A stretch of 61,841 nucleotides of DNA, from positions 1 through 61,841 of the forward strand of contig JACPNG010000011.1 of the NCBI GenBank assembly GCA_016185605.1. The letters are read 5' to 3'. The first letter of the stretch is position 1. Every line of letters starts with the position of its first letter. The notes under the pieces were generated by a model. That model searched no databases, was not told the origin of the DNA, and saw only the letters and a program-made list of their open reading frames with translations. Positions 14,410-38,626 of the stretch are shown here, piece after piece. The DNA comes from Candidatus Woesearchaeota archaeon (GTDB lineage: Archaea > Nanobdellota > Nanobdellia > SCGC-AAA011-G17 > JACPNG01). The translations under genes were made by a program, and so were the position numbers.

Positions 14410-14481
14410 GGGCTCGTAGCTCAGCGGTAGAGCACCTCCCTTGCAAGGAGGGGGTCTCGGGTTCAAATCCCGACGAGTCCA
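14410..14481 (+). tRNA. tRNA-Ala (anticodon TGC)
   Basis: GGGCTCGTAGCTCAGCGGTAGAGCACCTCCCTTGCAAGGAGGGGGTCTCGGGTTCAAATCCCGACGAGTCCA; cloverleaf with G3.U70. Confidence 0.96.
14471..14481 (+). repeat. att site copy (tRNA side)
   Basis: CGACGAGTCCA. Confidence 0.8.
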
Positions 14482-14546
14482 AGCCTATTATTTGTTCTAT
14501 GCTCACACCACTTAAAACATATAAACCGAATAGGAGTGTGAATAAT

Positions 14547-15884
14547 ATGGCAGAAGATGATATATATGGCAACAAATCCACATATGAGAAATCAAAGAAT
14601 AATATCAAAGACTTTCTCAATAAACCAAAAGAATCAGAGAATAGAGTAGGAAGATTAAGGAAGTATTATTGTAAGAATCCAGATAATATAAAACACTTTG
14701 AGAAGCTGTTTAATAGATTGGAAGCAAAGGACAATAGCTATATACACAGGAATAGAATGATCAGCATATTAAAATTAATATGTCATGCAACAGATAAGGA
14801 ATTATCAAAAATACAAGATAGAGAAGATATAGACAAGATTGTTGCTTTTGCTCACACCACACAAAAGACTATAGACTCAAAAAGGGATTTTATAAAGCAC
14901 ATAAAGTTAATCTGGAAGATATTATTTCCAGAGAAAGATGAGAAAGGAAGAATAGATGAAGCAATAACTCCTTATGTCATAAGGCATTTGACTACAAAAT
15001 TTGACAAGAGCAAAGAGAAGAGAAAAAAAGATATCCTAGAGCCAGAGGAAGTAGAGCAGATAATTGGTTATTTCTCCAAAGACCCTAGAATACAGGCATG
15101 GTTATCTTTGATTTATTTCAGCTATGCAAGACCGCAGGAATTAGCTTATATTAAGATAAGGGATTGTGAAATTTATGACAACTATGCAAAGATATGGATA
15201 AGTGAGCATGGAAAAGAAGGGGTTGGATTTTTAGAGGTAATAGACAACTTTTATTATATCTCAAAATGGTTTAATATACACCAATATAAGAAAGATAAGA
15301 ATAGCTTTTTATTCTATTCTAATGGAGACAAAAAAAGACCATTAACACCTTTTAATGTTAATAAAAAACTAAGGGAGGCAGTTAAGAGATTAGGCATTAA
15401 TAAGAGGATTACAAATTATAGCTTTAAGAGAAGCGGAATAACAACAGACGCAATAAGGGGAAATTCTCCAACAGAGATAATGCACAGGGCTAGATGGTCT
15501 TCTGTAGATCAATTAAGGACTTATGATTATTCGGCTCATGAGGATACATTCAAGCGTCAGTTAGCCATTAAGGGAAAAATAACAGACGGGAAATATAAAG
15601 ACTTAATGCCAAAGACAAAGAAATGTAGTTTTTGTGATTTTGAGAATGGAATAGCTGAAGAGATATGCAATAATAAATCATGCGGTAGACCACTAAATAG
15701 AGAGAAAATAAAACAGCAAATTATCAATTTAGAAAGAATAGAACGAGCTAGTAAAATCTTAGATAGGACTATAGAAAAAGTTAAAGATAAATCACCAGAT
15801 TATGTTGTAGATAAGGAGAAGGAGCAAATAAGAGAAACAATAAGAGAAATGCTAGAATCAGGAGAATTAAAGAATTTAGAATGA
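14547..15884 (+). CDS. tyrosine recombinase / integrase
   Basis: 'YFSYARPQELAYIKIRD', 'NYSFKRSGITTDAIRGNSPTEIMHRARWSSVDQLRTYDY', C-terminal CxxC...CxxxxC zinc motif. Start set at ATG 14547 from a TATA-like CATATAAA upstream. Confidence 0.9.
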   Translation: MAEDDIYGNKSTYEKSKNNIKDFLNKPKESENRVGRLRKYYCKNPDNIKHFEKLFNRLEAKDNSYIHRNRMISILKLICHATDKELSKIQDREDIDKIVAFAHTTQKTIDSKRDFIKHIKLIWKILFPEKDEKGRIDEAITPYVIRHLTTKFDKSKEKRKKDILEPEEVEQIIGYFSKDPRIQAWLSLIYFSYARPQELAYIKIRDCEIYDNYAKIWISEHGKEGVGFLEVIDNFYYISKWFNIHQYKKDKNSFLFYSNGDKKRPLTPFNVNKKLREAVKRLGINKRITNYSFKRSGITTDAIRGNSPTEIMHRARWSSVDQLRTYDYSAHEDTFKRQLAIKGKITDGKYKDLMPKTKKCSFCDFENGIAEEICNNKSCGRPLNREKIKQQIINLERIERASKILDRTIEKVKDKSPDYVVDKEKEQIRETIREMLESGELKNLE

Positions 15885-15969
15885 TTATAATTTCATTAGA
15901 AAACATCATAACGCAACAATGTATTCTCAGCAGTAAATTTATTAAACACTAATTATTTCTTTTATTGAT

Positions 15970-18222
15970 ATGGGACACGAAAATATTCCTATTGGAAGGT
16001 TTATAGATGATATTAAAAGAGGAGAATATGTTATACCTCATTTCCAAAGGGATTTTGATTGGCACCCAAATATGGTTGCGGATTTATTCGAATCAATTAT
16101 TTATAATAGGTATGCTGGAACTATTTTATTATGGAATTTAGAAAATATTGAAAGAGAATTAAAAATGTGGGATCCTTTGTGGGGTGCTGAAAAAGGAGAA
16201 AAGCCGACTAAAGCTATATTGGATGGACAACAGAGATTATCTTCAATTTATTATGCTCTATGTTCACCTAAAAAACCGTTTCCTAATAAAACAGTGTTTT
16301 ATTACTTTTATATAGACTTGGATCAACTTTTTTCTGGAAATGAAGATGAATCTATAGTATATGATTACTCTAAATCACCACGAAAATTAGAATATTTTAA
16401 AAGAGAGAAGGAATGGTTTATAAAAAATGGTAAATTCCCTATTTGTTTGTTATCTGATAAAGAATTTTTAGATAGTGAAGAGTACCAAGGTTGGCTAAAT
16501 AAATATATTGATTCTCGAGAAGAATTATGTTTGACTGCTTTATCTGTTGCTAAAAAAATAGAAAGTATTTTGAGTTATAATTTTTTAACAGAAACCTTGG
16601 AAAAGAAAGAAGTGAAAGAAATTTGTACTATATTTGCAAATATAAATAGCAAAGGATTAAAATTAGATATTTTTGATTTAATGAATGCTTTTTTGTATCC
16701 AAAAGGGATAAAATTAAGAAAAGATTGGGATGAATTAGAAAATGATGAATTAAAAAATATAGACCAACAAATGAAAGTCTATGTATTAAAATTAATTTCT
16801 TTATATAAGCAAAGATATTGTTCTTCTAAATTTTTGTATAATCTTATACCTGGTTCTACAATAACAGATAAAAAAGGAAATAAAACCATTTTAGTTAAAG
16901 ATGATATTGAATTTGAAAACTTATGGAATAATAGTATAAAATATTCAGAGAAAGCTAGAATTAGGATTATGAGTAGTGGAATTAATGATCTTGGAGCTAT
17001 TAAAAATACATTTATCCCAAATACCACAATCATACCTGTTTTAGGGGCTTTGCTTCTAAACTATAAAATTTCAGATTTAAAAAACAAAATTTCTGAAAAT
17101 GAATTTTGGGGTAAAATAAATAAATGGTATTGGTGTGCAGTATTATCTGGGGATTATAGTGGTTCTTCAGATTCTATAATGTCTAAAGATTATAGAGATA
17201 TTATAGAATGGCTCAAAGATGATTCAAAAATTCCAGAACGTATCTCAAAAATTAATAGTATTTTTATAGAAGAGTCACTGAATCTTAGAAAAGTTAAAAA
17301 TACAGGCAGTGCTCAATATTGTGCTATATTAAGTTTGTTAGCAATTAAATCAGCAAGAGATTTATTTACTGGAAGGATTTTAGGAAACTATCCCATAAAT
17401 GAAATCAATGATCACCATATATTTCCTACAAAATGTGGATTAAAAATACCTTCAGATGAAATAGATTGTATATTAAATAGAACATTATTATGGCAAGAAA
17501 CCAATAATAAAATAAAAAATAAAAAACCTAGCGAGTATTATAAAGAAATACTTAAAGAAATTAAAAGTGAAAAAGAAGTTGAAAGCTTAATGAATACTCA
17601 TCTTATTTCCCAATCTGCATTGAGATATTTAATTAATAATGATTTCAATGGATTTGTTGAAGAAAGAAATAAAACTATAAAAGAAGAAATTAAAAAAACT
17701 ATAGGGATTAAAAAAAATGAATTAGACTATTCTTTAATATCTCCAGATAAAGAATATGACAACGAAATAAATTATGTTAGTTATATAGAAAATTGCGAGG
17801 ATTATATTTTTATTATAGACCCCTATATTAAAGAAAATTCTTTCAGATTAATAAGAAAAGGTCTTGTTAATAATAAAAGTATTAAAAAAATTAAGATTAT
17901 AACTAAAGCTGATGCTTTAGAAGAAGATTTCAAAGATTCCTTTAAAAAATTTTCTAAACAGATGAATAAAGAAGGAATAAATATAGAAATTAGAGTTTTG
18001 GTTGATCCAAAAATAAAAAATAAAATACATGATAGATACCTTATAACAAAGAATAAGACATATAATTTTGTAAGTGCTGATACTGTAAGCAGGGGGCAAT
18101 TAAGCCATATAAAGGAAGTTGGCGATATTACCCCTAAATTTAATGAATTTTGGGAAAGTGGATTAGAATTATTAAGTAATTGGAGTATAATAAAAAGTAA
18201 AAATATTAGGAGAGAAAAATGA
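15970..18222 (+). CDS. DUF262/DUF1524 (GmrSD-like) protein with C-terminal PLD-like domain
   Basis: 'IPHFQRDFDW', 'ILDGQQRLSSIYYAL', 'NDHHIFPTKC', and C-terminal 'YIFIIDPYIKENSF...KIHDRYLITKNKTYN'. Confidence 0.75.
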   Translation: MGHENIPIGRFIDDIKRGEYVIPHFQRDFDWHPNMVADLFESIIYNRYAGTILLWNLENIERELKMWDPLWGAEKGEKPTKAILDGQQRLSSIYYALCSPKKPFPNKTVFYYFYIDLDQLFSGNEDESIVYDYSKSPRKLEYFKREKEWFIKNGKFPICLLSDKEFLDSEEYQGWLNKYIDSREELCLTALSVAKKIESILSYNFLTETLEKKEVKEICTIFANINSKGLKLDIFDLMNAFLYPKGIKLRKDWDELENDELKNIDQQMKVYVLKLISLYKQRYCSSKFLYNLIPGSTITDKKGNKTILVKDDIEFENLWNNSIKYSEKARIRIMSSGINDLGAIKNTFIPNTTIIPVLGALLLNYKISDLKNKISENEFWGKINKWYWCAVLSGDYSGSSDSIMSKDYRDIIEWLKDDSKIPERISKINSIFIEESLNLRKVKNTGSAQYCAILSLLAIKSARDLFTGRILGNYPINEINDHHIFPTKCGLKIPSDEIDCILNRTLLWQETNNKIKNKKPSEYYKEILKEIKSEKEVESLMNTHLISQSALRYLINNDFNGFVEERNKTIKEEIKKTIGIKKNELDYSLISPDKEYDNEINYVSYIENCEDYIFIIDPYIKENSFRLIRKGLVNNKSIKKIKIITKADALEEDFKDSFKKFSKQMNKEGINIEIRVLVDPKIKNKIHDRYLITKNKTYNFVSADTVSRGQLSHIKEVGDITPKFNEFWESGLELLSNWSIIKSKNIRREK

Positions 18223-18283: not shown

Positions 18284-18874
18284 ATGAAATGTAAAAAATG
18301 TGGCAATGAACTAACAAAAGATGATTTATATTGTTCTGAGTGTGGTCATAAAGTAGACCATGATGAAAAACATAAAGAAAAGATTTCTTTCATTTCTCTT
18401 TTTACATATAAAAGAACGGCAGTCATAATTAGTATACTTTTTATAGTGGCATTCCTATATTTTATTTATCCAACACTTAAAACAAATGAAACAATCCCCC
18501 CAACAACCTCTGATAATTTAAAAAAAGAAGATGTAAAAGTAGAAAATGAGGTTAATGAACTTAATGATGAAAAAAATTATCTTAAAGATAAGATAAATGT
18601 CCGTGAAAATAGTATATTTAATAAAAATTGTGAGAATGGAGTTTGTGAGAATGAATGTTCGGCAGTAGTATCAAATGATGGAGATAATAAAGTAAGACTT
18701 TCTATGGAGATATCTTTTAGAAGTGATGATAAATTACGTTTTGGTGGAATTGAAGATGTAGCAGTTTTAGAACCATATGATCTTAAAAAAGTTTCATTTA
18801 GCTATAAACAAGATGAGCTTTTGAATATAGATAATTGTGAAATGAAAAAGAGTTTTGTTAAATTTACGAAATGA
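18284..18874 (+). CDS. zinc-ribbon membrane protein with extracytoplasmic domain
   Basis: 'MKCKKCGNELTKDDLYCSECGHKV' then one TM segment. Confidence 0.7.
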   Translation: MKCKKCGNELTKDDLYCSECGHKVDHDEKHKEKISFISLFTYKRTAVIISILFIVAFLYFIYPTLKTNETIPPTTSDNLKKEDVKVENEVNELNDEKNYLKDKINVRENSIFNKNCENGVCENECSAVVSNDGDNKVRLSMEISFRSDDKLRFGGIEDVAVLEPYDLKKVSFSYKQDELLNIDNCEMKKSFVKFTK

Positions 18875-19581
18875 AATACTGTAATAAATGTGGAACAAAA
18901 GTAAAGAAAGATGAGAAATTCTGTCATAAGTGTGGTAATAAGATTTCTAAAGAAATTAAACATGAAGAACATAAAAAAGAAGATGAATGTCTAAAATGTC
19001 ATTCAGAAATACAAAAACATGCCACTTTCTGTGGAGAATGTGGGCATAAACTTTCAGAATCAAAGACTAAAAAGAAGCTTTCTGAGAAAGTAGAACCTTG
19101 GCATGTTCCATGGATAATTATTGGAGCATTGATAATAATAGCTGGTATTATTTTATTACCTACAAAAGTAGTTACTTATCAAGTAGATGTAGATTATATA
19201 GATACTGAAACATATACAGAACAAGTACCTTATCAAGATGTTGAAGAGTATATTGAAAGAGTTCCTTATGAGACTACAGAAACATATGTAGAAAGCATTC
19301 CTTATGAAGAACAAGAACCTTATACAACTATTGAATGTGCATTTGCAGGATTATTTTGCAAAGAAGTTACTAAATACAGAACTGTAACTAAATATAGAGA
19401 TACAACTAAAACAAAACCAGTTACAAAATATAGGGATGAGACTAAATATAAGACTGTAACTAAGTATAGGACTGAAGAAAGGGAAAGAGATGTAAAGAAA
19501 ACAAGAACAGAAACAAGAAGAAAAGAAGTAAATTGGGTTTTTGGTTTTGATGCTATTATAAAATTTAGAAAATTAAATTAA
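18871..19581 (+). CDS. double zinc-ribbon membrane protein with charged Tyr-rich repeat tail
   Basis: 'YCNKCGTKVKKDEKFCHKCG', second CxxC pair, TM segment, then acidic V-P-Y repeats followed by basic TKYR repeats; ATGA overlap with preceding ORF. Confidence 0.7.
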   Translation: MKYCNKCGTKVKKDEKFCHKCGNKISKEIKHEEHKKEDECLKCHSEIQKHATFCGECGHKLSESKTKKKLSEKVEPWHVPWIIIGALIIIAGIILLPTKVVTYQVDVDYIDTETYTEQVPYQDVEEYIERVPYETTETYVESIPYEEQEPYTTIECAFAGLFCKEVTKYRTVTKYRDTTKTKPVTKYRDETKYKTVTKYRTEERERDVKKTRTETRRKEVNWVFGFDAIIKFRKLN

Positions 19582-19582
19582 A

Positions 19583-20599
19583 ATGAAATATTGTACTTCT
19601 TGTGGCAAGGAAATAAAAGGTAATGAAAAGTTTTGTATTCATTGTGGAGAAAGTTTACAAGGAACAAAACATAAAACAAAAATACAAATTGCCCAAATAG
19701 TATTTATACTAATAATTTTTATTGGTATCATAAGCTTCTCAGTCGTATTTCTTAAACAAAAAAATCAACAAGAATCTGAAGATATTATTCTACCAACTAA
19801 ATTATCTGATAGATTAATAAGAGCAATAGTACCAGAATCAAAAGAGTCTGATAATGGTGTTAAGAAAGAAGGTTACGCTTTTGAAATAGAAAAACCCTTT
19901 TATGAAGGAAATTATGAATATGATGAAAGGACAGTAGATTTTAGAATGGTATGTGAGAGACCTTGTCCTGTTCCTAGAAATATTTTAGATCAAGAATTTG
20001 TAGCAATTAGCTATGCGGTCTCTACTTTGAGAGGTCTTACACAAAGTGATTTTGAAGAACATATTCTACCTTTTGAGGTTCATGCTTCAGAAGATTCTAT
20101 TTGTCCTTTGCTTCCAACCGCTCTTGCTTATATGAGCACTTTTGTTGATAATAATGGTGTTGAAAGAGGTAAATTATGCTTTTTCTTTGAAGAACTGAAT
20201 TATAATAGGGACAAACTACCTTATTCTACCTCAATACATGAAGTTACCCATTTACTTGAATCTGGTAAAATAGAACATAATAGTGTTATTTGGGAAGGAT
20301 TATCTGAAATGATGGAATCTTTCTTTTTGAAAGGAAACGAGAGAAATAGTTTTTGTTGGCAAGGTAATGCATGGTATAAAGATATAGCACAAAATAATCA
20401 CGATCCTCATTGGGTTGGTGGAGCTTTATTTTTCGAATTATGTAATCAATATGGTTTTGATTATAATAGTTTACCTACTCTATTTGAAGAGATAGACAAG
20501 AGAGGGGAAGTTAGTATAAAAGAATTTGTTAATATAATAAATAATATTGTTGGAAGAGATACATCACCTTTATTTAGAAATGCTGGAGTTGATGTTTAG
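19583..20599 (+). CDS. zinc-ribbon membrane protein with extracytoplasmic metallopeptidase-like domain
   Basis: 'YCTSCGKEIKGNEKFCIHCG', TM segment, 'STSIHEVTHLLESG...WEGLSEMMESFF' (HExxH plus downstream Glu). Confidence 0.65.
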   Translation: MKYCTSCGKEIKGNEKFCIHCGESLQGTKHKTKIQIAQIVFILIIFIGIISFSVVFLKQKNQQESEDIILPTKLSDRLIRAIVPESKESDNGVKKEGYAFEIEKPFYEGNYEYDERTVDFRMVCERPCPVPRNILDQEFVAISYAVSTLRGLTQSDFEEHILPFEVHASEDSICPLLPTALAYMSTFVDNNGVERGKLCFFFEELNYNRDKLPYSTSIHEVTHLLESGKIEHNSVIWEGLSEMMESFFLKGNERNSFCWQGNAWYKDIAQNNHDPHWVGGALFFELCNQYGFDYNSLPTLFEEIDKRGEVSIKEFVNIINNIVGRDTSPLFRNAGVDV

Positions 20600-21895: not shown

Positions 21896-22099
21896 CTATC
21901 TCTTTCTCCAAAAGAAACCAGCCTTAGATTTTAGTTTTTCTATTTTATTTTGAGATTCCAATTCCATTAAAATTCTATACAAAGCATGCCAATTTATAAT
22001 CTTTTTAACTTTAGATTCTAATTCTTTTAACACTTCATTAGTACTTTTAATTTGATCTTTTTTTATTATATCCAATAATTCCTTATCATATTTACTCAT
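21896..22099 (-). CDS. small winged-helix-like protein
   Basis: 67 aa 'LLDIIKKDQIKSTNEVLKELESKVKKIINWHALYRILMELESQNKIEKLK'. Confidence 0.5.
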   Translation of the reverse strand: MSKYDKELLDIIKKDQIKSTNEVLKELESKVKKIINWHALYRILMELESQNKIEKLKSKAGFFWRKR

Positions 22100-22227: not shown

Positions 22228-22896
22228 ATGAAATTTAAGATACTATTAGGCATATTTTTTATAATTATTCTAATTAATATATACAGTAGTGAAGCTCAAA
22301 TATTAAGATTAATTGGAGAACCCAAAATATTAGTTTGTCAAGAAGATATAGAATTAGTGTCTTTAGCATATAAAGAAGTTAAATTCGTTGTTCAAAATCA
22401 AGCAGAAAATAATGCTAATTTTAATGCTTTCATAGTATGTGAAGACGATAGTCATCAAGAAATTTTTCCAAGCAGAATACAATTTAAGAGTGACGAAATT
22501 GAGACAATCCAAGGAAGAGTTAGTTTTGGTACTCAAGAAGATAAGTCTGTATCTTGTATATTTACTGTTCAAGATTTAAATAATCCAGATAATAAAGATA
22601 GTTGTAATTTTAATGTTAATGTTAAACCTAGACCCATAGATTGTGATATTGGAGATACTATATGTAGAGACAATGATTTATATGCCTGTGAAAGTGGAAC
22701 TAAATTTGTCAAGATTAAAACATGTGAATTAGGATGTGAAGAAACTGGAAAAGTGGGTGTTGCAAAATGTAAGGGAGAACAATTAGTCACTAATAAAAGT
22801 TATCAAAAGAAAGAATCTAATTATATAATACCTTCAATAATTATTGCATTTGCTATCATCATAGGAGCTTGGATAATTAAAAGAAAAAGAAAATGA
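22228..22896 (+). CDS. secreted/membrane-anchored protein
   Basis: N-terminal signal sequence, cysteine-rich segment, C-terminal TM 'IIPSIIIAFAIIIGAWIIKRKRK'. Confidence 0.6.
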   Translation: MKFKILLGIFFIIILINIYSSEAQILRLIGEPKILVCQEDIELVSLAYKEVKFVVQNQAENNANFNAFIVCEDDSHQEIFPSRIQFKSDEIETIQGRVSFGTQEDKSVSCIFTVQDLNNPDNKDSCNFNVNVKPRPIDCDIGDTICRDNDLYACESGTKFVKIKTCELGCEETGKVGVAKCKGEQLVTNKSYQKKESNYIIPSIIIAFAIIIGAWIIKRKRK

Positions 22897-23255
22897 AAGT
22901 TGATTTCAAAATATTGTTAATCTTAATCTCTTTAGTTGTATTAGCTGGTTGTACCAATCAAAATTCAAATTATCCAGTTGCTAATTCAGAAAATTGTAAA
23001 GATTACTGTCCTACTAAAAATTTCCCTGCTTGGACTGAATTTTCAGAAGAACCAAAAAGCGATTTTTTTGATTTACATATTCCAATATCAGATTGGAATG
23101 AACATCCTCAAGTTTTAACGAGTGACTGTTCGAAGGAATTGCGAAAACGAACAGGAATCACTCAAACAGAAGGTTGTGGTATATGTAGGATAGGAGATGT
23201 TACTGTAACTGATGATGCTACTATTGGTTGTGAATGTTACTATGGCAGATGTTAA
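22893..23255 (+). CDS. lipoprotein-like secreted protein
   Basis: 'ILLILISLVVLAGCTNQ' lipobox; cysteine-rich. Confidence 0.6.
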   Translation: MKVDFKILLILISLVVLAGCTNQNSNYPVANSENCKDYCPTKNFPAWTEFSEEPKSDFFDLHIPISDWNEHPQVLTSDCSKELRKRTGITQTEGCGICRIGDVTVTDDATIGCECYYGRC

Positions 23256-23280
23256 AATGAATGGAGGAAATGAATAAAAA

Positions 23281-23721
23281 ATGAATAAAATTATTAGATA
23301 TTCAATTACTACTCTAATAATTATAGGTTTTCTTATTGGTTTTTTTATATTTCTAAAGAGAGGACAAGTTCCAGACATAATAATACCTTATAATATTGGT
23401 GTATTATTTACTCAATTTGGTTCTACTCCAGACAGTTTTTGGAGAGACCACAAGTTAGTATCTACTACATTTAGAGTTGATAGTGGATTAGGAGATTACA
23501 ATGGGGGTAAACATAAAGATATAAGTGCTAGACAAACCTGTAATGACGAGTTTGATAAAAGAAATTATCCCGTTGAGTATTACTCTGATGGAAATAATAA
23601 TTACCCTATAAGGTCTTGTTGGATTGAAGGAATAGGCTCAAGAGAATTTGAATGTGAAGGAAATACTTGTCATACAAATGCTTATGTTGATTGTGATTGT
23701 TTTTATGCAGTTAGGAACTAA
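23281..23721 (+). CDS. membrane-anchored cysteine-rich protein
   Basis: N-terminal TM; C-terminal 'VDCDCFY' resembles 'IGCECYY' of the preceding ORF. Confidence 0.55.
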   Translation: MNKIIRYSITTLIIIGFLIGFFIFLKRGQVPDIIIPYNIGVLFTQFGSTPDSFWRDHKLVSTTFRVDSGLGDYNGGKHKDISARQTCNDEFDKRNYPVEYYSDGNNNYPIRSCWIEGIGSREFECEGNTCHTNAYVDCDCFYAVRN

Positions 23722-23742: not shown

Positions 23743-24480
23743 TTATCTTCCAAATCTCCCTTTTATTCTTTTATTAGCTTTCTCAAACTCTTCTTTTTTT
23801 ATAATTCTTTCTTCTAAGTAGATTTTATTCCTAATTATAGAATAAACAGAAGCTAAAGATATCCCATATTTATCAACAATCTCATTATAAGTACTACCTT
23901 CATTCCATAATTTAAATATCTCTTTAATATCATTAATACTATTAGGATCTTGAATCATGACACCATCTTTAACTTTAAATCCATATGGGGCTCTTCCAAC
24001 TCTAACACCTAAACTAATTTTCCTTTTTAATCCTAAAATAGTTCTTTCAGATATAAGCTCTCTTTCAAATTGAGCTACAGAAGAAAATAGATTAAGTACT
24101 AAATTTCTAGATGCTCTACCTATAATAGAATTATCTCCAGTATCTATATTTTCTCTTATAATAATAAATCTCTTGTTTAGCTTATCTAATATATTAAAAG
24201 ACTCATGCAAATGAATTAAAGACCTCATCCATCTATCTACAGAATAACAAATTATAATATTAAACTTATCATCTTTAGCTTCTTTCATTAGTTGATCTAA
24301 AAAAGGTCTAGAAGCCTTTCCTCCACTCTCTCCTTTGTCAATATATTCTTTATAGAGATCCCATTTATTCTGTTTTATCTTATCTCTGCATATCTCTAAT
24401 TGGTTTTCTATGCTATTAGAAGGCTCATCCTTATTCCTAATTACGCTGATCCTTGCATATATACAAGCTATATCCTTCAT
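23743..24480 (-). CDS. serine recombinase (resolvase/invertase family)
   Basis: 'CIYARISV', 'IICYSVDRWMRSLIHL', 'FERELISERTILGLKRKISLGVRVGRAPYGF', C-terminal HTH. Confidence 0.93.
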   Translation of the reverse strand: MKDIACIYARISVIRNKDEPSNSIENQLEICRDKIKQNKWDLYKEYIDKGESGGKASRPFLDQLMKEAKDDKFNIIICYSVDRWMRSLIHLHESFNILDKLNKRFIIIRENIDTGDNSIIGRASRNLVLNLFSSVAQFERELISERTILGLKRKISLGVRVGRAPYGFKVKDGVMIQDPNSINDIKEIFKLWNEGSTYNEIVDKYGISLASVYSIIRNKIYLEERIIKKEEFEKANKRIKGRFGR

Positions 24481-24854: not shown

Positions 24855-25238
24855 TTATTGTTTTTTCTTAGGTTCAAACCATGAGAATTTAGATATTCTC
24901 CTTAATTCAACATACTCGGGAATGTATTTTACTTCATTCTTTCCTTCTTTTAAGTCAATTATAGCTATTCTATAAGGTCTTAATCTCTCTTTCTTCTTAT
25001 AGTAGCCTTGTCTCCAGATATAAAGGTAAAAATAACCATTTCCAAACTTATTATAAAGCCATTTTGCTAGTTTATCTCTTCTTTCTAGTTCAGAATAAGG
25101 GATTAAGAATGTGCCTTTGGATCTAAACACATATCTGTAGACTTTTTTTCTTATTTTAGGACTCCAATGTTTTAATCCTTCATTTGACATTGGCTCTCTA
25201 ACAACAATCATAATTTTTCTAGCTTGAATCATTATCAA
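24855..25238 (-). CDS. hypothetical protein
   Basis: 127 aa; overlaps the ATPase ORF. Confidence 0.5.
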   Translation of the reverse strand: MIMIQARKIMIVVREPMSNEGLKHWSPKIRKKVYRYVFRSKGTFLIPYSELERRDKLAKWLYNKFGNGYFYLYIWRQGYYKKKERLRPYRIAIIDLKEGKNEVKYIPEYVELRRISKFSWFEPKKKQ

Positions 25239-26802
25239 CCTCTTTTAATTTTCTTAATATATTGAAGACCATGGGTTGAGAAATTTTATATTTCTGGGCT
25301 ATTTTGCTTTGAGAAAGTCCAGCTTCAGAATCTTTTAGAATATCCAAGTTTCTCTTTTCTAGTTCTATCCTTTTTTCTGATACCTTTTCTTGCTTAATTT
25401 TTTGTAATTCTTCTTTAATATTTTCACTTTTAGTCTTTTCTTCTTGTATTTTCCTTCTTGCTTCTATTCTTCTTTTAACTTTATTTCTTGCAATCTGCAT
25501 AAAATAGTTTATGCTTTTTTGCTTCTTTTCATTCATTTGCCTCTTTAAACTAGAATAGTTAATCATTTTTTCTGGAAAGAATTTCTCATAGAATTTATCA
25601 AATTTGTACCCTGCTTCACAATGAGGAAAGGGACTAAAACAAAATCTTAATGGTATCTCATTTTCTACTCCTAAACCTCCACCAATTATATAAAATTGGT
25701 TTCTTTCTAGATCTAAGATGAACTGAATATCATCATTATTATAACCATAAACTTTTCTTAGAGTATCTAAATCAGTTTCTCCGCTAATCTTCATTACTAT
25801 TATTTTAGTAAATGAATTGCTTCTCAATAAAGATTTACTTAGTCCAGCTAAAGATTGCGATGTGGATAATGAGTTAATCTTTCGTGCTCTAAAATTGGTA
25901 TTAAGGTGTCTAGCTATTTGATTGCTTAATATTCTAGAATATTGAACTGTAGAATCAGAGGGGCAAATATCCTTAATCTCATCTAATACTACTAAAATTC
26001 CTTTTTTAGATAAATGAGCATGTTCTACTAATTGATTTAAAAGCATTAAAACAAAAAAATCCTTTGTTTTTTGGTCTTTTATATATCTTGTTGAAAATAT
26101 TTTAATTGAAGTATCTGAAAATATCTCCTTTTTCCAATCTAAACTTAAAGTAGAATTAGATTCTTGTAAAAACATATGTCTTTGAAATCTGTTGAATATT
26201 CTGACTAATTCGTCTAGGTTCTTTATAGTTCCTAAACTAACGCCACTCAAAGCGAAATTTTCAGGATCTGGCATTCTAAATTCATAAGATCCCTCTAATT
26301 GTGTTTTTCTCTCTATTAAATGGCTAAGGTTGAACATAAAAGACCATAAATCTTCATTTTCTTTTAAGGAATCTCTGGCAGAAATTAATAGTTCCCTTGT
26401 GCTTTTATCCTCTGATGTCTCAATTAGCAAATTAAATGCCGAATCATCTATTGATAATATAGGAAAAGAAAAAAATCTTGTCTCTGGGATTTTTATATTT
26501 GGAATCTCAAAAGTAAAGGGGTGAAGAATTCTAATAGAAACTGACTCTGGTTTATTATCTTGAATATTTAATCTTTTTCTATGATATTGCTTCATTATTG
26601 TATCTGGAAAACACATAAATCCTAATTCCATTAAACCCTTAACATCGCTACAAATAAGAATATCAAAACCCTCTTTCCAATAACTATAAATTGTTCTTTC
26701 TATGGCATGTGTCTTCCCAATTCCAGATTGTCCAATTATTAAGAGCTGTTCATCTTCATCAATTTCTTTTTCATCTGACTTTCTTAATGCTAATTTTGTC
26801 AT
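25219..26802 (-). CDS. HerA/VirB4-like ATPase with C-terminal HTH
   Basis: Walker A 'IIGQSGIGKTHAI', Walker B 'GILVVLDEIKDI', 'NQIARHLNTNFRARKINSLSTSQS'; C-terminal 'AGLSQSKIAQKYKISQPMVFNILRKL'. Confidence 0.75.
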   Translation of the reverse strand: MTKLALRKSDEKEIDEDEQLLIIGQSGIGKTHAIERTIYSYWKEGFDILICSDVKGLMELGFMCFPDTIMKQYHRKRLNIQDNKPESVSIRILHPFTFEIPNIKIPETRFFSFPILSIDDSAFNLLIETSEDKSTRELLISARDSLKENEDLWSFMFNLSHLIERKTQLEGSYEFRMPDPENFALSGVSLGTIKNLDELVRIFNRFQRHMFLQESNSTLSLDWKKEIFSDTSIKIFSTRYIKDQKTKDFFVLMLLNQLVEHAHLSKKGILVVLDEIKDICPSDSTVQYSRILSNQIARHLNTNFRARKINSLSTSQSLAGLSKSLLRSNSFTKIIVMKISGETDLDTLRKVYGYNNDDIQFILDLERNQFYIIGGGLGVENEIPLRFCFSPFPHCEAGYKFDKFYEKFFPEKMINYSSLKRQMNEKKQKSINYFMQIARNKVKRRIEARRKIQEEKTKSENIKEELQKIKQEKVSEKRIELEKRNLDILKDSEAGLSQSKIAQKYKISQPMVFNILRKLKEVDNDSS

Positions 26803-27269
26803 TTCTTTTCCTCTCTTTTTTTCTCAATTTCTGACCAGAACGAATTTGGAATATCCATATGTTTTAGCTTTTTTGTCTCATTTAATAGAATGTAAAAAGC
26901 TTCATAAATAATATCTATATATAAAGAGGATTTTGCAAATAAATTTCGGTATTTAATTACATAAGGAGACGTAACATCAATTTCTTTTCTTAATTTTCTA
27001 TCGTCTAACTGAAAGAGATAAAAATTTAATTCCGATAAGATTATTCCAACCTTTCTCAATTTCTTTATTTTAATATCATATTTTTCCTTCCAGACTTTTT
27101 TTAACGGGTCATCTCCTAATTTCCCCCTTAGCATTGCTATAACTTCGTATAAAATTAGGTAACCTGTTCCAGAAGTGTCAGAATAAGCTTTAGCCATCCT
27201 CATCAAAATTCCTTGTTGAGTTGAGCTTTTGAATTCTCTTCTTAGATCAAATGCGTTATCATCTTCCAT
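26799..27269 (-). CDS. hypothetical element protein
   Basis: 156 aa in a tightly packed operon. Confidence 0.5.
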   Translation of the reverse strand: MEDDNAFDLRREFKSSTQQGILMRMAKAYSDTSGTGYLILYEVIAMLRGKLGDDPLKKVWKEKYDIKIKKLRKVGIILSELNFYLFQLDDRKLRKEIDVTSPYVIKYRNLFAKSSLYIDIIYEAFYILLNETKKLKHMDIPNSFWSEIEKKREEKK

Positions 27270-27734
27270 TTAGAAATCCTCCCAAACAGCTACAATATGA
27301 TGATCTATCCTAGTTAATTTTCTAATCTCTTTTTCTTGTTCTTTAGATTGTATAATCTTAAATAAGATACTATAATCTTCTCTTATCTTTTGTTGCAAAA
27401 AAGAGAATGCTTTTTTTCTCAATAAAAAGTATCTCTTTCTGATTCTTCTGTTATAATCTCTATCTGACTCATTATCTTGTTTTGGAGCACTATTTTCTAT
27501 AGCTTCTTTCAATGCACCAAAGATATAATAAGCAAAATACTGTCTTCTAGTCTTTTCTAACTTATGATTTATAGGAAACCCTTCAAACTTTAGTTGTTGT
27601 AGAGCTAAATCATAGGACTTATAGAAATTATATGGACTAAATCTTAGTTCATTAAATATTTTTAAATTATGTTCTATTAAATTTCTAATTATCATCATTA
27701 TCCTCCTCCAAATCTTGATCTTCTGTGGACTCAA
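27270..27734 (-). CDS. hypothetical element protein
   Basis: 154 aa in the same operon. Confidence 0.5.
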   Translation of the reverse strand: MSPQKIKIWRRIMMIIRNLIEHNLKIFNELRFSPYNFYKSYDLALQQLKFEGFPINHKLEKTRRQYFAYYIFGALKEAIENSAPKQDNESDRDYNRRIRKRYFLLRKKAFSFLQQKIREDYSILFKIIQSKEQEKEIRKLTRIDHHIVAVWEDF

Positions 27735-28206
27735 ATTCTAGGCTACTTATGTTAAATTTTAACTTCTTGAGAATTTCTAGAGAAACATCAAATAAATAAT
27801 TAAAATCATAAAGAAATACATCCTTGACTATAAAAAAATCATTACTAGCCCTTTCTAGCTTTTTAAATAGCATATCAAATTCTTTATCATTTTCTTTTTT
27901 ATTTTCAAATAATAATTTTTCTAATCTTTCTTTTTTTTCCAGCAATTTTTGAAAGATTAAGAATTTATCTTGAAGGATCACAATTCCTTTTTTTATATCT
28001 GGATTCTTTATGAATTTTTTTGTGAGTAAAATTATATTAAGCCCAGCTTGATAATCATTAGTATCATTATATTTTACAAAATTTTTGTTTAATAAAGTCG
28101 AATCTAAACTGTCCAATTTTATGTCTTCAATAAGTTCAATTTTATCTAATTCTATCCTTTCTATCTCCATATTCAATATATTTACATCTCGATTTTCTTT
28201 TTCCAT
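27685..28206 (-). CDS. hypothetical element protein, Glu/Lys-rich
   Basis: 173 aa in the same operon. Confidence 0.5.
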   Translation of the reverse strand: MEKENRDVNILNMEIERIELDKIELIEDIKLDSLDSTLLNKNFVKYNDTNDYQAGLNIILLTKKFIKNPDIKKGIVILQDKFLIFQKLLEKKERLEKLLFENKKENDKEFDMLFKKLERASNDFFIVKDVFLYDFNYLFDVSLEILKKLKFNISSLEFESTEDQDLEEDNDDN

Positions 28207-28337: not shown

Positions 28338-29759
28338 CTACCCATTATAATTTATCCCCTTCCAACATTGAACTCTTTGTTTATTGCCGTTAGTATCTAA
28401 ATTAGGTCTATAATCTTCTACCCTTACTTGTCTTTGAAGTTCCTTATGAAACATATTCTCTGGTACCATTGGATAATTATTGTTTCTGCAATAATCAGTA
28501 TAATGTGTGTATAGTTGTTTTTTTGCTACAAAATCATCAAAAGAGATAAGAATGTGGTCTATCACAAATGAAGCCACAGAATCAGACTTTCGGACATATT
28601 CATCTCTAACTTCATTTATGGATTTAGCATTACTGAAATCCCCTTGTTCTAAAAGTCTTTTTAGCCCTTCTATTGCCCAATTTAATAACCCAGACATTTC
28701 TTCTGGAGTTGTTAATCTCTCCAAAAGCTTCTTATCAACTTTATTTCCTATGAATTGGTTAGGAAACATCAAGATGATCCATCTTCTAAAGAAAGCGTCT
28801 GTATCATCTGGAGTTTTTGGAATTTGATTGCAACTAAATATTTGTTTGGCATAATTTATAAAAAAGAATTTATCCTTAAACTTCTTTTCAGCAGGGATCA
28901 AGTCTTCTCCAGTTAACATTTTAAAAAAAGAGGTTTGTTGTAACGCTTTTGATGGTAAATCAGCAAACATATTTGCTAATTTTCCAAATAAAGAGGATAG
29001 TGAAAATCTATTATTCTCCAATGATTGTAGTTGAAGTGAAGCAACATTCCTTTGTCCGAGAAACATTCTTAATAAATTAATAAGGGTTGATTTCCCATTT
29101 GCACCAGTTCCAACTAACATAAATGCTTTATGTATTGGATAAGATTTATATAAACAATATCCAAATAATTCTTGTATAACATTTATTGAATCATCCTTAA
29201 CAATTTCACTTATGAATTTCATGATCTTGGGACAAGTAGCATTTCTTAGATAAACTACTGGGATTTTACCAAAAAAGAATAAATTCGAAGAATATGGTTC
29301 AACTTGCATGGAATTAAGATCAAGAACACCTCCAATTAAGCATATTTTATCTTTCGGTTCTTGAATTTTTTCTCTGTTTTCATAAGTCCTTCTTTTAATA
29401 TGTGCTAACGTTTCATTTACAATGTGGGTATTATTTAAATTTCTTAATATAGATTGTATTTGGCTACTGAGTATTTTTTCTCCTAGATTTTCATAGATTC
29501 CTTCTTGTTTATTGTAAATAAAAACCTCATCAGTGTCCTTGAATGTTATTATAATTTTTGTATTCAATAGATGATTACTTAATTGATAAATTCCTTCTTG
29601 TTTATTGTCCTTTATTAAAATCCTGATTCCTTCTAATTCTTTTTCAGTTTCAATTTTTTCTAATATTGGAATAAATTTATTATTTGGATCTTCTTTTCTT
29701 TTTTGATTTCTAAACTCTCTTGCTTTTTCTTCTGTTACAATTAAATTATCGGTTGTCAT
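28338..29759 (-). CDS. D5-like / P4-type primase-helicase (SF3 ATPase)
   Basis: 'MLVGTGANGKSTLINLLRMFLG', 'KQIFSCNQIPKTPDDTDAFFRRWIILMFPNQF'. Confidence 0.9.
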   Translation of the reverse strand: MTTDNLIVTEEKAREFRNQKRKEDPNNKFIPILEKIETEKELEGIRILIKDNKQEGIYQLSNHLLNTKIIITFKDTDEVFIYNKQEGIYENLGEKILSSQIQSILRNLNNTHIVNETLAHIKRRTYENREKIQEPKDKICLIGGVLDLNSMQVEPYSSNLFFFGKIPVVYLRNATCPKIMKFISEIVKDDSINVIQELFGYCLYKSYPIHKAFMLVGTGANGKSTLINLLRMFLGQRNVASLQLQSLENNRFSLSSLFGKLANMFADLPSKALQQTSFFKMLTGEDLIPAEKKFKDKFFFINYAKQIFSCNQIPKTPDDTDAFFRRWIILMFPNQFIGNKVDKKLLERLTTPEEMSGLLNWAIEGLKRLLEQGDFSNAKSINEVRDEYVRKSDSVASFVIDHILISFDDFVAKKQLYTHYTDYCRNNNYPMVPENMFHKELQRQVRVEDYRPNLDTNGNKQRVQCWKGINYNG

Positions 29760-30403: not shown

Positions 30404-31948
30404 ATGTTAGATAATATAAATAATTCATTACGAGGTAAAGAGAATGAAGTATTCTCACTATTTTTTAGTCAGTGGAATAATATAAAGGGCTTCTCAAAGA
30501 TTTATGATAAAAGATATCCTACTAAGAAAAATGGGAAATATGTATGTAAAAAATGCAATATGTCTACAAACTCTCCACCGAATAATAAAATATGGAGATG
30601 TGAAAATAATATAGAAAAAAATGAAAAATGTAACCAAAAATTTATTATTCCTGGGTCTAAGGAAGATAAAAATTATAGTAATAATCCAGTGGTACGTGAT
30701 TTTTTTGATAAATGTAAAGAAAGAGGTTGGCTAGATTTTAAGAAAATAGAAAAAGAATCAGATAGATCAAGTAAAAAAGGAAAATTACATAAAGTACCAA
30801 ATGATAAGATTGGTGGGTTTAGACTTAATATTAATTCACTTCTTGATTTAAACAATATTAATCTTAGTGAAAATGAAAAAACAAAACGCTTTTTAGAGTT
30901 ATATTTAGAACTATCAGAAATTAGAGATATCGTTTCTAAGAATATAATAGAAAAATTAGATATATTTACAAACATATTAGAAAGAAGACTCATAAAACAG
31001 TTACTTAATATAAATTTAATAATCAACCCTTATAAAAATATGAAATATTTGGGAATTCTTAACTATTTTGATACTTCAGATATAAAATCTGAAGATATTA
31101 AAGAATTTAGATATTTTTCATCTAAACCTTCAAAAGAAGCTAAGAAATTACTCAAACAATCTATGCCTTCTGAATTTATAGAAAATATAAAAAAGAGAGA
31201 CAAAGAAAGGAAAATCTCATTAGTTCAATCTATTAAATATTTTCTTAATGATCCAAAATTCAATAATAAAGAAGAGAGAATTAAAAAAAGAATTTCCATA
31301 ATAGATAATTTTGATTTATTATTATCTAATATAAAAAAAGATGAGTTGTCTGATGAAGAAAAAGAGATATTGAAAGATAAAGTGGAAACTTTTACAATAT
31401 TAATGTCTTATTATTTTATAGAGAATATTGTAGAGATTTTAGCCAATATGAATAAACCAACTCTTAAAGAAGCTATAGAATTAAATTTAAAGAATAAATA
31501 TTTTGAGTTAGTAAATAAGTACAAAAATTTACCTAAGAAATTTTGGGAAGAGAAAACTTATCCTTTTAACGAAAATGAAAATGAAGGATTATTTATGTTT
31601 AAGATGAGGTATCTCAAATGGGAAAATAAAATAAACAAATCCGAATTTGAATTAATCAAAATTATATATATAGAAGAGATTTCTAAAAGATTTGAAGTGA
31701 TATCATTAAGCTTGTTAAAATTATTAGTAATTTTAAATGAAGAATTTTCATACAATGAAGAGAAAGAAGAGATAAGCAAAATTAAGGGAAAAATTATTGA
31801 TGAAGGCATAAAAAAATTTAAAGAGATTACATTAGATAAAATAAAGAACCTTCCAAAAAGGTTTGAACAAATTATAAATTATTTTAAAAATGAATCTCAA
31901 GAAGAATATGGAGAGCTTATTAAAAGATTAGAATCATTTGAAAATTAA
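30404..31948 (+). CDS. hypothetical protein with zinc-finger-like N-terminus
   Basis: 514 aa; 'YVCKKCNMSTNSPPNNKIWRCENNIEKNEKC'. Confidence 0.55.
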   Translation: MLDNINNSLRGKENEVFSLFFSQWNNIKGFSKIYDKRYPTKKNGKYVCKKCNMSTNSPPNNKIWRCENNIEKNEKCNQKFIIPGSKEDKNYSNNPVVRDFFDKCKERGWLDFKKIEKESDRSSKKGKLHKVPNDKIGGFRLNINSLLDLNNINLSENEKTKRFLELYLELSEIRDIVSKNIIEKLDIFTNILERRLIKQLLNINLIINPYKNMKYLGILNYFDTSDIKSEDIKEFRYFSSKPSKEAKKLLKQSMPSEFIENIKKRDKERKISLVQSIKYFLNDPKFNNKEERIKKRISIIDNFDLLLSNIKKDELSDEEKEILKDKVETFTILMSYYFIENIVEILANMNKPTLKEAIELNLKNKYFELVNKYKNLPKKFWEEKTYPFNENENEGLFMFKMRYLKWENKINKSEFELIKIIYIEEISKRFEVISLSLLKLLVILNEEFSYNEEKEEISKIKGKIIDEGIKKFKEITLDKIKNLPKRFEQIINYFKNESQEEYGELIKRLESFEN

Positions 31949-34023: not shown

Positions 34024-34938
34024 ATGACTCTATTTGAAACTATAGTTGTAATTTTGATACTTTTACTAATTGGTTTAGTCATACACTTAATTAGAAAAAT
34101 AAAGCCTATAGAAGAGCCTAAAACTCATGGAGAAATAATGAGCAGATTTGCTGAAATAAAAACTATTATTGATGAAAGAGAAAAGAAGCATGAAAAGATA
34201 GAAGAAAAGAGGGATGAATTTCTAAAGCAAAATACTGATAATTTATCAAAAGAATTAACAAATTTTACAAGATTAATAAGTGGTACAAAGAAAAGTGGTA
34301 ATATTGGAGAAAATATGCTAAAAGAGGTTTTACATCCATTCATAAAATCAGGTAAAATAATGACTAATCTACATATAGATAACAAAGTTGTTGAGTTTGC
34401 TTGGAAAATAACTAATAATAAATTTGTTCCTATAGATTCCAAATTTCCAGATATAATAGATTTATATAAGGATTATTTTGAAGCAAAAGAGGAAAAAGAG
34501 CAACAAAAGTATAAAAGAGAAATAATAAATAAATTAAGAAAGTCTATAGATGAAGCAAAGAAGTATAAAAATAAAAGAAATACCACAGACAAAGTTATAA
34601 TAGCCATACCAGATGCTATTTTTGAATTAATACCAGAAATTAACTCTGATTTTGAATCTACTGGTGTTATTGTTTGTGGTTATAGTTTTGTTACATACAT
34701 ATCAGCACATATTGAAAGAGAATACTTAATTATTGTTGAAAGTGGAGAGATTGGAGAATATAGGGAATTATTAGATAAGATTATGTCTCTTATATATGAA
34801 ATTAAGAAAAAAACTGAAACTATAGATAAAGGAGTTAATATGGTTGGTAATGCTAATATAGAAATTAAAAAATCAGTTATAGAAGCAGAAAGCAGTAAAC
34901 CCAAACAAAAGAAAAAAATTGTTGTAGGTAATAAATAA
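34024..34938 (+). CDS. RmuC-like DNA recombination protein
   Basis: N-terminal TM; 'SGNIGENMLKEVLHPF', 'FVPIDSKFP', 'DKVIIAIPDAIFELI'. Confidence 0.7.
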   Translation: MTLFETIVVILILLLIGLVIHLIRKIKPIEEPKTHGEIMSRFAEIKTIIDEREKKHEKIEEKRDEFLKQNTDNLSKELTNFTRLISGTKKSGNIGENMLKEVLHPFIKSGKIMTNLHIDNKVVEFAWKITNNKFVPIDSKFPDIIDLYKDYFEAKEEKEQQKYKREIINKLRKSIDEAKKYKNKRNTTDKVIIAIPDAIFELIPEINSDFESTGVIVCGYSFVTYISAHIEREYLIIVESGEIGEYRELLDKIMSLIYEIKKKTETIDKGVNMVGNANIEIKKSVIEAESSKPKQKKKIVVGNK

Positions 34939-35002
34939 TGATCAATATGACTTTATCTAAGTACTATATTATATTAATCTAAGATAATCCTCCATTTAAG
35001 AT

Positions 35003-36550
35003 TTAAAAGCTTCTTTCTTTTTTTAAATCTCTATTTTCAGCTTTCAAATATATTTCATCAATCTCTTCTTGTGTACAATCATCAAAACTTTTCTTTTTCC
35101 TTCTACACAATTCAATATATTTTGGTAACATTTTCTTTTGATATGGACTAATTTCCATAGCCTTTTCAAAAAAATTAATAGCTTCTTTAAAATTACCTAA
35201 ACCCATATAACAATAACCTACTCCCTTTAGTAAACTTCCAGTAGTTTTTATTTTCATAGCTTCTTTAAAATATTCAATTCCTTTCTGAAATTTACCAGAT
35301 TCTTTACATAAATAACCTTTATTCATTAACTCTTCAAATGGACTGAGTTTCTTTTTAATTGTTTTTTGCTTTTTTAATTGGATATAAGGTTGCTCTTTTA
35401 GTACTAATTCCTTAACTTCATTAAAATCAAAATTTATAAGCGGTTTTTTTGATAAACTATTCTTTGCTTTTTTAACTAATTTTTTATCTCTAATACTAAA
35501 TAGATAAATCGTATTTTCAGGATTAGCAGTAGTTACAATAATCTCAGTTCCATCATCTGATATAGCTTGTCCGCCAATATTAGAGCTAAATTTCTTTTCA
35601 AATAATTTTTTTCCATTCTTACTAAAAAAATATATTTTTCCAGCAAGTTCACCAGTAAAGGATATCCAATCTATAATTACAACTATTCCATCATTAGTGA
35701 CAAAAGCTCCATTTGGTCTGGAGATGTCCTTTTGCCATAAAATCTTTCTTTCATTTTCTATTAAATATACCTGACCAGAAATAGTCTTTTCATTGCCATA
35801 TTCATCTTCTTCCCCATGTGCATCACAATAAGCTACAATATATTTATTATTATTTGATTTACTATATTGACCATAGAATTCTCCTTCTTTATCCCCTAAT
35901 GTTATCCATTCATCATCAATGTCTATAGAGAAATTATTGAAATCAGTTACTTTTTCCAAAAGCATATCATCTTCGTTATAATCCTCATCATCAATATCAA
36001 ATCCAATTGAGAAACCAGCTTTATCTCCATAGTTTTTAATCTGACTAACTTTTAATTCCTTTCCTAATAGTTTAATATCTTTTTTAAATTGAGTTATCTC
36101 ATTCTTACAAGAATCAATATCTATATGTTTTTCTATTTCTAATACTAGTTTGAAAGCACCCTTACTAATTTTTCCTATTTTCTGTCTAAAATCTTGATAA
36201 ACATTAGAATTAATTTTACCTTCATTCGATCCAGATTCTATAGTTTCATCACATCTATCAAAAATTTCTTCAAATTCTTTATATATCTTTTTTAATTCAT
36301 TTTGAGTAATATTTAATTCTTTTAAATTCTCTTCATTAAGATTATTCTTATAATTATTTATAAGATTGCTATAAAAAAATCCTTCAACTACATCTATGGC
36401 TAGATTTTGAATTGTATCTACTTTAGGTGACTTTGAAACCATCCATTTAGCCTGTTCAATAACTGGTCTAAGTTTATTAAGAAATTCATTTGATGTGCTT
36501 TGAACCTTTCCTTTTTCAGAACCAAATAATTTATCAAAAAATCCAGTCAT
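35003..36550 (-). CDS. TPR-repeat protein with propeller-like central region
   Basis: C-terminal TPRs 'GYLCKESGKFQKGIEYFKEAMKI...GYCYMGLGNFKEAINFFEKAMEI'. Confidence 0.6.
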   Translation of the reverse strand: MTGFFDKLFGSEKGKVQSTSNEFLNKLRPVIEQAKWMVSKSPKVDTIQNLAIDVVEGFFYSNLINNYKNNLNEENLKELNITQNELKKIYKEFEEIFDRCDETIESGSNEGKINSNVYQDFRQKIGKISKGAFKLVLEIEKHIDIDSCKNEITQFKKDIKLLGKELKVSQIKNYGDKAGFSIGFDIDDEDYNEDDMLLEKVTDFNNFSIDIDDEWITLGDKEGEFYGQYSKSNNNKYIVAYCDAHGEEDEYGNEKTISGQVYLIENERKILWQKDISRPNGAFVTNDGIVVIIDWISFTGELAGKIYFFSKNGKKLFEKKFSSNIGGQAISDDGTEIIVTTANPENTIYLFSIRDKKLVKKAKNSLSKKPLINFDFNEVKELVLKEQPYIQLKKQKTIKKKLSPFEELMNKGYLCKESGKFQKGIEYFKEAMKIKTTGSLLKGVGYCYMGLGNFKEAINFFEKAMEISPYQKKMLPKYIELCRRKKKSFDDCTQEEIDEIYLKAENRDLKKERSF

Positions 36551-36945: not shown

Positions 36946-37034
36946 AAAAAGAATCTATATTATTAGAATTTAAAGGTTTTTAGTCTTTGTAGCTTTGCCC
37001 GACAACTAACTCCTGCCCGAAAAGTATAATTACT

Positions 37035-38008: not shown

Positions 38009-38018
38009 TTTTCTTTAT

Positions 38019-38363
38019 CTATTTACTCTTCCAATAATCAAAAACTTTTCTTAATTCTCTAGCAAAGAATATTTCTCTACTCTCACCTTTATTTCTAAGC
38101 CCCAATTCTTCCCATAATGTAAAGAATCCATAAGCTGGACTTGGAGGATGAGAACCTTTCATAACTACAACTGTAGAAAGTAGGGGTCTACCATTTTTAT
38201 ACTCTTCCTTTGATATATCTCCTAAGATATGAGCAATCTCATTTCTATCTTTAATATTATCAAAGTCTAGGTTTAGATTACACTCATTATTTAAATCTGT
38301 ATAAGTCATAGTAGTTCCTCTTCTTGCCACATCCTTTAATTTTTCATAGACTTTTTTATTCAT
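38019..38363 (-). CDS. hypothetical protein
   Basis: 114 aa; coupled to the upstream AbrB-like ORF (TGA/ATG overlap). Confidence 0.5.
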   Translation of the reverse strand: MNKKVYEKLKDVARRGTTMTYTDLNNECNLNLDFDNIKDRNEIAHILGDISKEEYKNGRPLLSTVVVMKGSHPPSPAYGFFTLWEELGLRNKGESREIFFARELRKVFDYWKSK

Positions 38364-38506
38364 TTTTTCTTTAATATCAAACTTAGTTTCTCACCAGCCT
38401 TGATCTCAATTTTATCTTTATGTTGCCAACCGAAACTTTCAACTAAAGCTTTAGGCAAAGTCATAAGATATTGTTCTTTGTTTTTTACTAATGTTCTTAT
38501 AGTCAT
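38360..38506 (-). CDS. AbrB/MazE-like DNA-binding protein
   Basis: MTIRTLVKNKEQYLMTLPKALVESFGWQHKDKIEIKAGEKLSLILKKK; 48 aa, not in the ORF track. Confidence 0.55.
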   Translation of the reverse strand: MTIRTLVKNKEQYLMTLPKALVESFGWQHKDKIEIKAGEKLSLILKKK

Positions 38507-38615
38507 AATTTCACCCCAATAATCTTTATTAATATTACCACCAATAATAATAGTAATATTTATATAGTTTAAGTGGTTGTATTACTATAGGCATAAAACT
38601 TATAGGGCTAGTTCT

Positions 38616-38626
38616 CGACGAGTCCA
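38616..38626 (+). repeat. att site copy (distal end)
   Basis: CGACGAGTCCA identical to the tRNA-Ala 3' end. Confidence 0.8.

Follow-up and report, generated by a model that had tools for sequence, protein, structure and literature searches.

Closest Described Systems

Among published categories, the cryptic integrated elements of Thaumarchaeota (PMC6563490) come closest to the element described here. In the sections of that paper that were compared, such elements measure 2.6–98 kb, carry an integrase beside a tRNA gene and short direct-repeat att sites at the tRNA 3′ end, and have their own replication genes, including SF3 helicases, with no capsid or conjugation genes. Their authors suspect that new plasmids and viruses are hidden among them.

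The window, that is, the whole stretch of 61,841 nucleotides analyzed, is contig C5 of an 857-kb assembly. Within it, positions 14482–38626 share these features and this size range: an integrase lies at one end, att is a direct repeat of a tRNA end, no structural or conjugation genes are recognizable, and the region lies outside the conserved chromosome. The differences are the archaeal phylum and a module of ATPase and serine recombinase genes which is undescribed in the Thaumarchaeota elements, as far as the published account was compared. Since no gene of a known capsid or conjugation machine was recognized, the region is filed as a cryptic integrated element, and this is its best description. 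It is very probably an integrated 24.1-kb mobile element of a Woesearchaeota-like (DPANN) archaeon, which would work as proposed in the following sections.

The element resembles the “classical” archaeal elements which target tRNA genes with an intact integrase, of the pNOB8 or SNJ2 type (PMC8371274), in that the integrase is whole and att lies outside the gene. It differs from them in the conserved C-terminal Cys4 of its integrase, for which DPANN genomes alone yielded close relatives. It is not of the SSV (suicidal) type, in which att lies inside the integrase and the gene is split, whereas here the integrase ORF is intact and att is in the tRNA.

The only match of the integrase in the phage collection is to the pleomorphic virus ThalV2 (BK065158; 23%). 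This distantly related tyrosine integrase is the single protein in common, and ThalV2 has a rolling-circle Rep instead of a D5 helicase. The haloarchaeal fusexin elements (PMC9259645) share with the window a tyrosine recombinase, an ATPase that in the window is putatively of HerA type, and surface proteins, but they exceed 50 kb and carry VirB4/VirD4-like genes, and the window has no full fusexin.

A full-text literature search, with most subscription journals outside its reach, returned no paper on such Woesearchaeota elements (integrase/tRNA/plasmid or provirus). What is new here is an integrase family of DPANN archaea with tested att logic and a four-gene module.

Element Boundaries and the Integrase Family

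The boundary features and the integrase are as follows.

14410–14481, plus strand: tRNA-Ala(TGC), intact copy and attachment gene (ARAGORN and Rfam)
14471–14481, plus strand: attL core CGACGAGTCCA, the tRNA 3′ end (exact repeat)
14507–14525, plus strand: left inverted arm ACCACTTAAAACATATAAA, candidate integrase arm site (17/19 inverted match to 38559–38577)
14547–15884, plus strand: tyrosine integrase (PF00589, 8.6e-11; residues conserved)
38559–38577, minus strand: right inverted arm, pairing with the left arm ACCACTTAAAACATATAAA
38616–38626, plus strand: attR core CGACGAGTCCA, right end of the element (exact repeat)

The sequence CGACGAGTCCA has exactly two copies in the window, while dinucleotide shuffles gave 0, and the first copy forms the final 11 nt of the complete tRNA-Ala. 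Just inside both att cores, a 19-bp inverted repeat was found (17/19 matches; 0/200 shuffles). Inverted arms flanking a core are the expected look of the attP of a tyrosine integrase. If the crossover falls inside the core, the element occupies 14482–38626 (24,145 bp) or, equivalently, 14471–38615. Inverted arms are also located at the ends of the elements of G267, G025, G247, and archaeon GW2011_AR20 (0/200 shuffles each). The arm repeat is marginal or weaker in G072 and G062, and a significant one was not found in G064.

The integrase gene is intact and lies 65 bp behind the tRNA-Ala, on the same strand. Its longest ORF begins at 14499, but the start MAEDDIYG... is the one kept across the family. 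Numbered from this start, R195, K223, R295, W317, and Y326 are conserved in the family together with the C-terminal Cys4, and the five residues are read as the putative catalytic set.

Members of this family (E ≤ 1e-20) were found in 22 of the 371 genomes of the phylum that were searched, the window's own counted. Most of them are placed directly behind a tRNA of the same strand, for instance Gln, Ser, Tyr, Pro, Leu, Gly, Val, Glu, Cys, and others. At seven of the 12 testable tRNA-flanked loci (the window and six relatives), a second copy of the tRNA 3′ end lies 6.3–24.1 kb downstream; the remaining five gave no att repeat. The repeated stretch comprises the last 11–16 nt of the tRNA, or 58 nt in G064. 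In the controls, such repeats appeared in 5% of cases at shifted positions of the same sequences and in 0/192 when the tRNA ends were swapped between genomes. The boundaries are supported because two independent tests agree, namely the tRNA repeats of the integrase family and the inverted arms.

The first-pass annotation had proposed an element integrated in tRNA-Ala, with the tRNA 3′ end duplicated at 38616–38626 and the integrase beside the intact tRNA copy. The exact 11-nt repeat, the shuffles, the arms, and the tyrosine integrase directly downstream of the tRNA bear this out, and the case for an integrated DPANN element is strong; sister elements that share its integrase and att logic add to it. 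The integrase would recombine the att core of the element, flanked by the inverted arms, with the final 11 nt of tRNA-Ala, which have the same sequence. Integration of this kind would rebuild the tRNA and leave the integrase beside it, in agreement with the att duplication and the arms observed.

One of the sister elements, L267 in a tRNA-Glu (G062:C27:8001-20518), contains a 535-aa ORF (8258–9865) resembling a reverse transcriptase by eye and a tandem pair of similar 226–228 aa proteins.

Host Context and the rRNA Operon

In five genomes of the host family, the order 16S, tRNA-Ala, 23S is found, with ~85–160 bp between the tRNA and 23S. In the window, 16S (2405–4823), tRNA-Ala, and 23S (39393–43590) are far apart, with gaps of 9.6 and 24.9 kb. 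The element sits between tRNA-Ala and 23S and accounts for only 24.1 kb of the operon break-up. One gene lies between its right end and 23S.

38647–39182, plus strand: host gene, outside the element (70% over 106 aa to a gene of G001)

The G001 partner is located just upstream of 23S; therefore, this stretch is host DNA, and part of the separation of the tRNA from 23S predates the element. A true empty site was not found in a close relative; in those examined, the operon is compact. The gene upstream of the tRNA (13132–14358), taken as a guide to such a site, had no orthologue in the host-family genomes.

The element has only one copy in the assembly. The first-pass annotation had named a gene block belonging to the syntenic core genome as one observation that would speak against its reading. 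This search was carried out and left the element standing: the block is not syntenic core, because none of the other 102 genomes of the order has the module ATPase, and the D5 gene had no match in any host-family genome.

LAGLIDADG ORFs are located inside or beside 16S and 23S (3412–3999, 42047–42562, and 43626–44273), and both rRNA genes are ~1 kb longer than the Rfam models. These two observations indicate that 16S and 23S probably hold introns with homing endonucleases.

Replication, Probable Defense, and Other Cargo Genes

The following genes of the element lie outside the four-gene module.

15970–18222, plus strand: GmrSD-type (DUF262) restriction-like protein with an HNH-like HHIFP and a C-terminal IHDRY (PLD-like) motif (PF03235, 1.1e-28; PADLOC HEC-05, 6.9e-28)
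18284–18874, plus strand: zinc-ribbon membrane protein (PF13240)
18871–19581, plus strand: double zinc-ribbon membrane protein (zinc-ribbon similarity in sister element G064)
19583–20599, plus strand: zinc ribbon, TM, and HExxH (HEVTHLLE), putative zincin (sequence)
21896–22099, minus strand: 67-aa winged-helix-like protein (64% identical to one in sister element G064)
22228–22896, plus strand: secreted/anchored Ig-like protein with signal peptide, Ig-like fold, Cys-rich domain, and C-terminal TM (AF2 pLDDT 78)
22893–23255, plus strand: putative lipoprotein (sequence)
23281–23721, plus strand: N-terminally anchored small protein, convergent with the serine recombinase (sequence)
28338–29759, minus strand: P4/D5-type SF3 replicative helicase (TIGR01613, 8e-68; PF19263, PF08706, PF03288)
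30404–31948, plus strand: orphan 514-aa protein with an N-terminal Cys4 (no Pfam, PHROG, or PADLOC family)
34024–34938, plus strand: RmuC-family protein (PF02646, 6e-18)
35003–36550, minus strand: TPR protein (PF00515, 1e-11)
38360–38506, minus strand: AbrB/MazE-type DNA-binding protein (PF04014, 5.7e-6)

The helicase has an intact Walker A motif, and its near relatives are annotated as Woesearchaeota; in three Woesearchaeota contigs which also have a tyrosine integrase (G120, AR20, and L069), it is 54–63% identical. A primase (AEP) domain was not detected in the D5 protein, so that of the earlier label of D5-like primase/helicase the helicase part stands and the primase part does not. After excision, the circle would replicate with this helicase of its own.

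The GmrSD-like gene is probable defense (anti-virus) cargo. The several small zinc-finger proteins of the first reading were recovered as zinc ribbons by Pfam, and its RmuC-like and TPR proteins likewise have their Pfam families. It had missed three genes, that is, those of the GmrSD-type protein, the serine recombinase, and the AbrB/MazE protein. Many of the remaining ORFs have no recognized family.

The Ig-like protein at 22228–22896 is 30% identical to the domain III–IV part of the fusexin of AR20. Its identity as a fusexin was rejected: domains I–II are missing, Foldseek gave only generic Ig/PapD-like folds, and no fusexin appeared in the PDB sequence search or the Foldseek top 50. A complete fusexin gene was not found in the window.

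Archaeon GW2011_AR20 (G051; CP010426), of the same order as the host, is deposited as a complete chromosome. Its fusexin of 764 aa (L064:9054-11348, minus strand = CP010426 769054-771348) matches PDB 7p4l, the archaeal Fusexin1 (E 9.8e-20), is fused to a C-terminal M64-type peptidase, and shows no obvious C-terminal TM. The gene adjoins a tyrosine integrase and a D5 helicase in an element of 12.7 kb (765747–778450), bounded by exact 15-bp direct repeats (765747, 778436) with perfect 14-bp inverted arms; here a complete DPANN chromosome carries an integrated element with a fusexin. The fusexin paper treated assignments of MAGs outside haloarchaea with caution, and AR20 is unmentioned in its main text (PMC9259645). 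The AR20 element resembles that of the window in its D5 helicase (60% identical), tyrosine integrase, and membrane proteins. It differs in that its integrase is only 26% identical, its target is another, it has the fusexin, and the ATPase search gave no match in it.

The Four-Gene ATPase Module

The center of the element is occupied by a module on the minus strand.

23743–24480, minus strand: serine recombinase (PF00239, 6.3e-30; HHalign P 99.8 to the L294/L296/L297/L298 family)
24855–25238, minus strand: module protein B, basic, 127 aa (HHalign P 94.7, E 5.8e-8; same position in sister loci)
25219–26802, minus strand: putative HerA-superfamily ATPase with C-terminal HTH (HHalign P 100; relatives in L285/L294/L296/L297/L298)
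26799–27269, minus strand: module protein A, 156 aa (HHalign P 90, E 1.6e-6)
27270–28206, minus strand: two small ORFs in the C and D positions of sister loci (position only)

These HHalign values refer to the window proteins against families built without the window, and eight control ORFs of the element had P below 10 with all families. The homology of the two small ORFs to C and D of the sister loci was unsupported by HHalign.

Relatives of the ATPase with 26–31% identity are found in G389 (L285), G492 (L294), G477 (L296), G494 (L297), and an IMG/VR contig (L298). The order A, ATPase, B, serine recombinase is common to L294, L296, L297, and the window. L285 has A, ATPase, and B in this order up to the contig end, while in L298 the module genes are split, B and the recombinase lying in opposite orientation ~4.9 kb from the ATPase. 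Since the helicase type and the tyrosine integrase differ between the elements that bear the module, it acts as a unit that can be exchanged; L285, for instance, has instead an AAA ATPase and another integrase. In L294 (14349–17457), an intein apparently splits the P-loop of the module ATPase of G492, and the ORF at 16052–16894 may encode a homing endonuclease.

The module is sparsely distributed. Genomes with any match to the ATPase were 3/371 and 6/200, several of them weak, and a match in G117 was rejected as an ordinary HerA/DUF87 protein and not the module. In scans of viral contigs, neither the window ATPase nor the D5 protein nor a two-row alignment of ATPases found relatives, tblastn with the ATPases and protein B gave no matches in the phage and plasmid records tested, and PLSDB had no match for a relative of the module ATPase. 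The relatives are confined to DPANN contigs and one IMG/VR contig.

Curated families match the module only at the serine recombinase, at short HTH or P-loop stretches, and in one weak PHROG labeled terminase (E 3e-6), which covers part of the ATPase; there was no strong Pfam or PHROGs match for the ATPase, A, or B. The ATPase alignment contains the Walker A and Walker B motifs, and profile and BLAST searches gave a weak match to a HerA/DUF87 protein, although Pfam gave no direct HerA match. An AlphaFold model made without an alignment reached pLDDT 42 and was discarded. The motifs and weak matches suggest a divergent HerA-superfamily protein. Thus, of the HerA/VirB4-like ATPase with HTH in the first-pass annotation, a probable HerA relation and the C-terminal HTH are retained, and VirB4 is unsupported by any match.

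The block of A, ATPase, B, and serine recombinase would most likely move DNA and resolve or recombine it. The Walker motifs, the C-terminal HTH, and the weak similarity to a HerA/DUF87 protein suggest that the ATPase may be a hexameric HerA-type DNA pump, with genome packaging as the alternative. The serine recombinase could act in dimer resolution or in a second recombination reaction, and the GmrSD-like protein would serve in defense.

Plasmid, Virus, or Island

Besides the module genes, the IMG/VR contig IMGVR_UViG_3300022916_000003 (L298–L300; 40.8 kb) encodes DNA methylases and numerous large secreted proteins, some of which L294 also has. Its circularity is probable but not certain, because its 109-bp terminal repeat lies inside a repetitive PQQ-like gene.

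That only ordinary host genes lie between tRNA-Ala and 23S, with CGACGAGTCCA repeated by chance, has a negligible probability: the 11-bp core by itself is short, but the shuffles, the inverted arms, six replicate loci, and the absence from relatives oppose it. A formerly mobile island, now dead or domesticated as fixed host cargo, would be in line with the single copy in the assembly, the many orphan ORFs, and the fact that a circular form was not observed, and is nevertheless improbable in view of the intact catalytic residues of the integrase, att cores, inverted arms, helicase Walker A, and serine recombinase. More weight, at about an even balance of belief and doubt, is given to an integrative plasmid, or to an element that spreads through conjugation or cell fusion, whose ATPase would be a coupling or partition motor. 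The helicase, ATPase, serine recombinase, and restriction cargo fit this reading, the haloarchaeal fusexin elements reportedly have HerA ATPases and XerC/D recombinases among their signature genes (PMC9259645), and the sister AR20 element has a fusexin. Against it, the window itself has none, the relative of the ATPase compared with PLSDB had no match there, and no relaxase, VirB4, or VirD4 was recognized (Pfam on the main ORFs, PHROGs on ten), so that the element does not qualify as integrative-conjugative.

The same scans recognized no capsid, as the first-pass annotation had stated; divergent structural proteins would escape PHROGs and Foldseek, neither of which found a capsid or virion homologue. 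That the element is the provirus of a DPANN virus not yet described, probably with a membrane envelope, is rather unlikely. In this reading, the ATPase would package or move the genome, and the secreted Ig-like proteins of 22228–23721 would form the virion surface. This would agree with the many secreted/TM proteins and the terminal repeat of the 40.8-kb contig that carries the module, with the membrane-protein genes that, in the window, L297, and L298, converge on the serine recombinase, and with the ThalV2 integrase match. However, IMG/VR membership is no proof of a virus, and that terminal repeat falls within the repetitive gene. Apart from the weak partial terminase-labeled match of the ATPase, the scanned proteins of the window and L298 have no capsid, VP3/VP4-like, or terminase match. 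No ThalV2 protein other than the integrase matches the window, and VP3 and VP4 of ThalV2 had no match in the window or the sister loci, so that it is not pleolipovirus-like in this sense. We lean weakly towards a plasmid-like element over a virus.

An unrecognized set of four genes that recurs in further mobile elements of this group suggests a plasmid/virus family that has had no name so far. The new plasmid or virus family of DPANN archaea suggested at first is therefore plausible, given the distribution of the module. More tentatively, and with doubt prevailing, the A/HerA-like ATPase/B/serine-recombinase block may be the hallmark of such a family, in which the 40.8-kb IMG/VR contig would be a free circular member, the window element an integrated member with a swapped replication and integration module, and the ATPase with A and B a novel DNA-translocation or packaging machine.

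Mobile elements of DPANN archaea are poorly described. The gains from this locus are boundaries tested by the tRNA 3′ end and the inverted arms, an integrase family with which elements can be found across the phylum, and a four-gene module to seek. A free replicon of this type could serve as a genetic tool for hosts that now have none.
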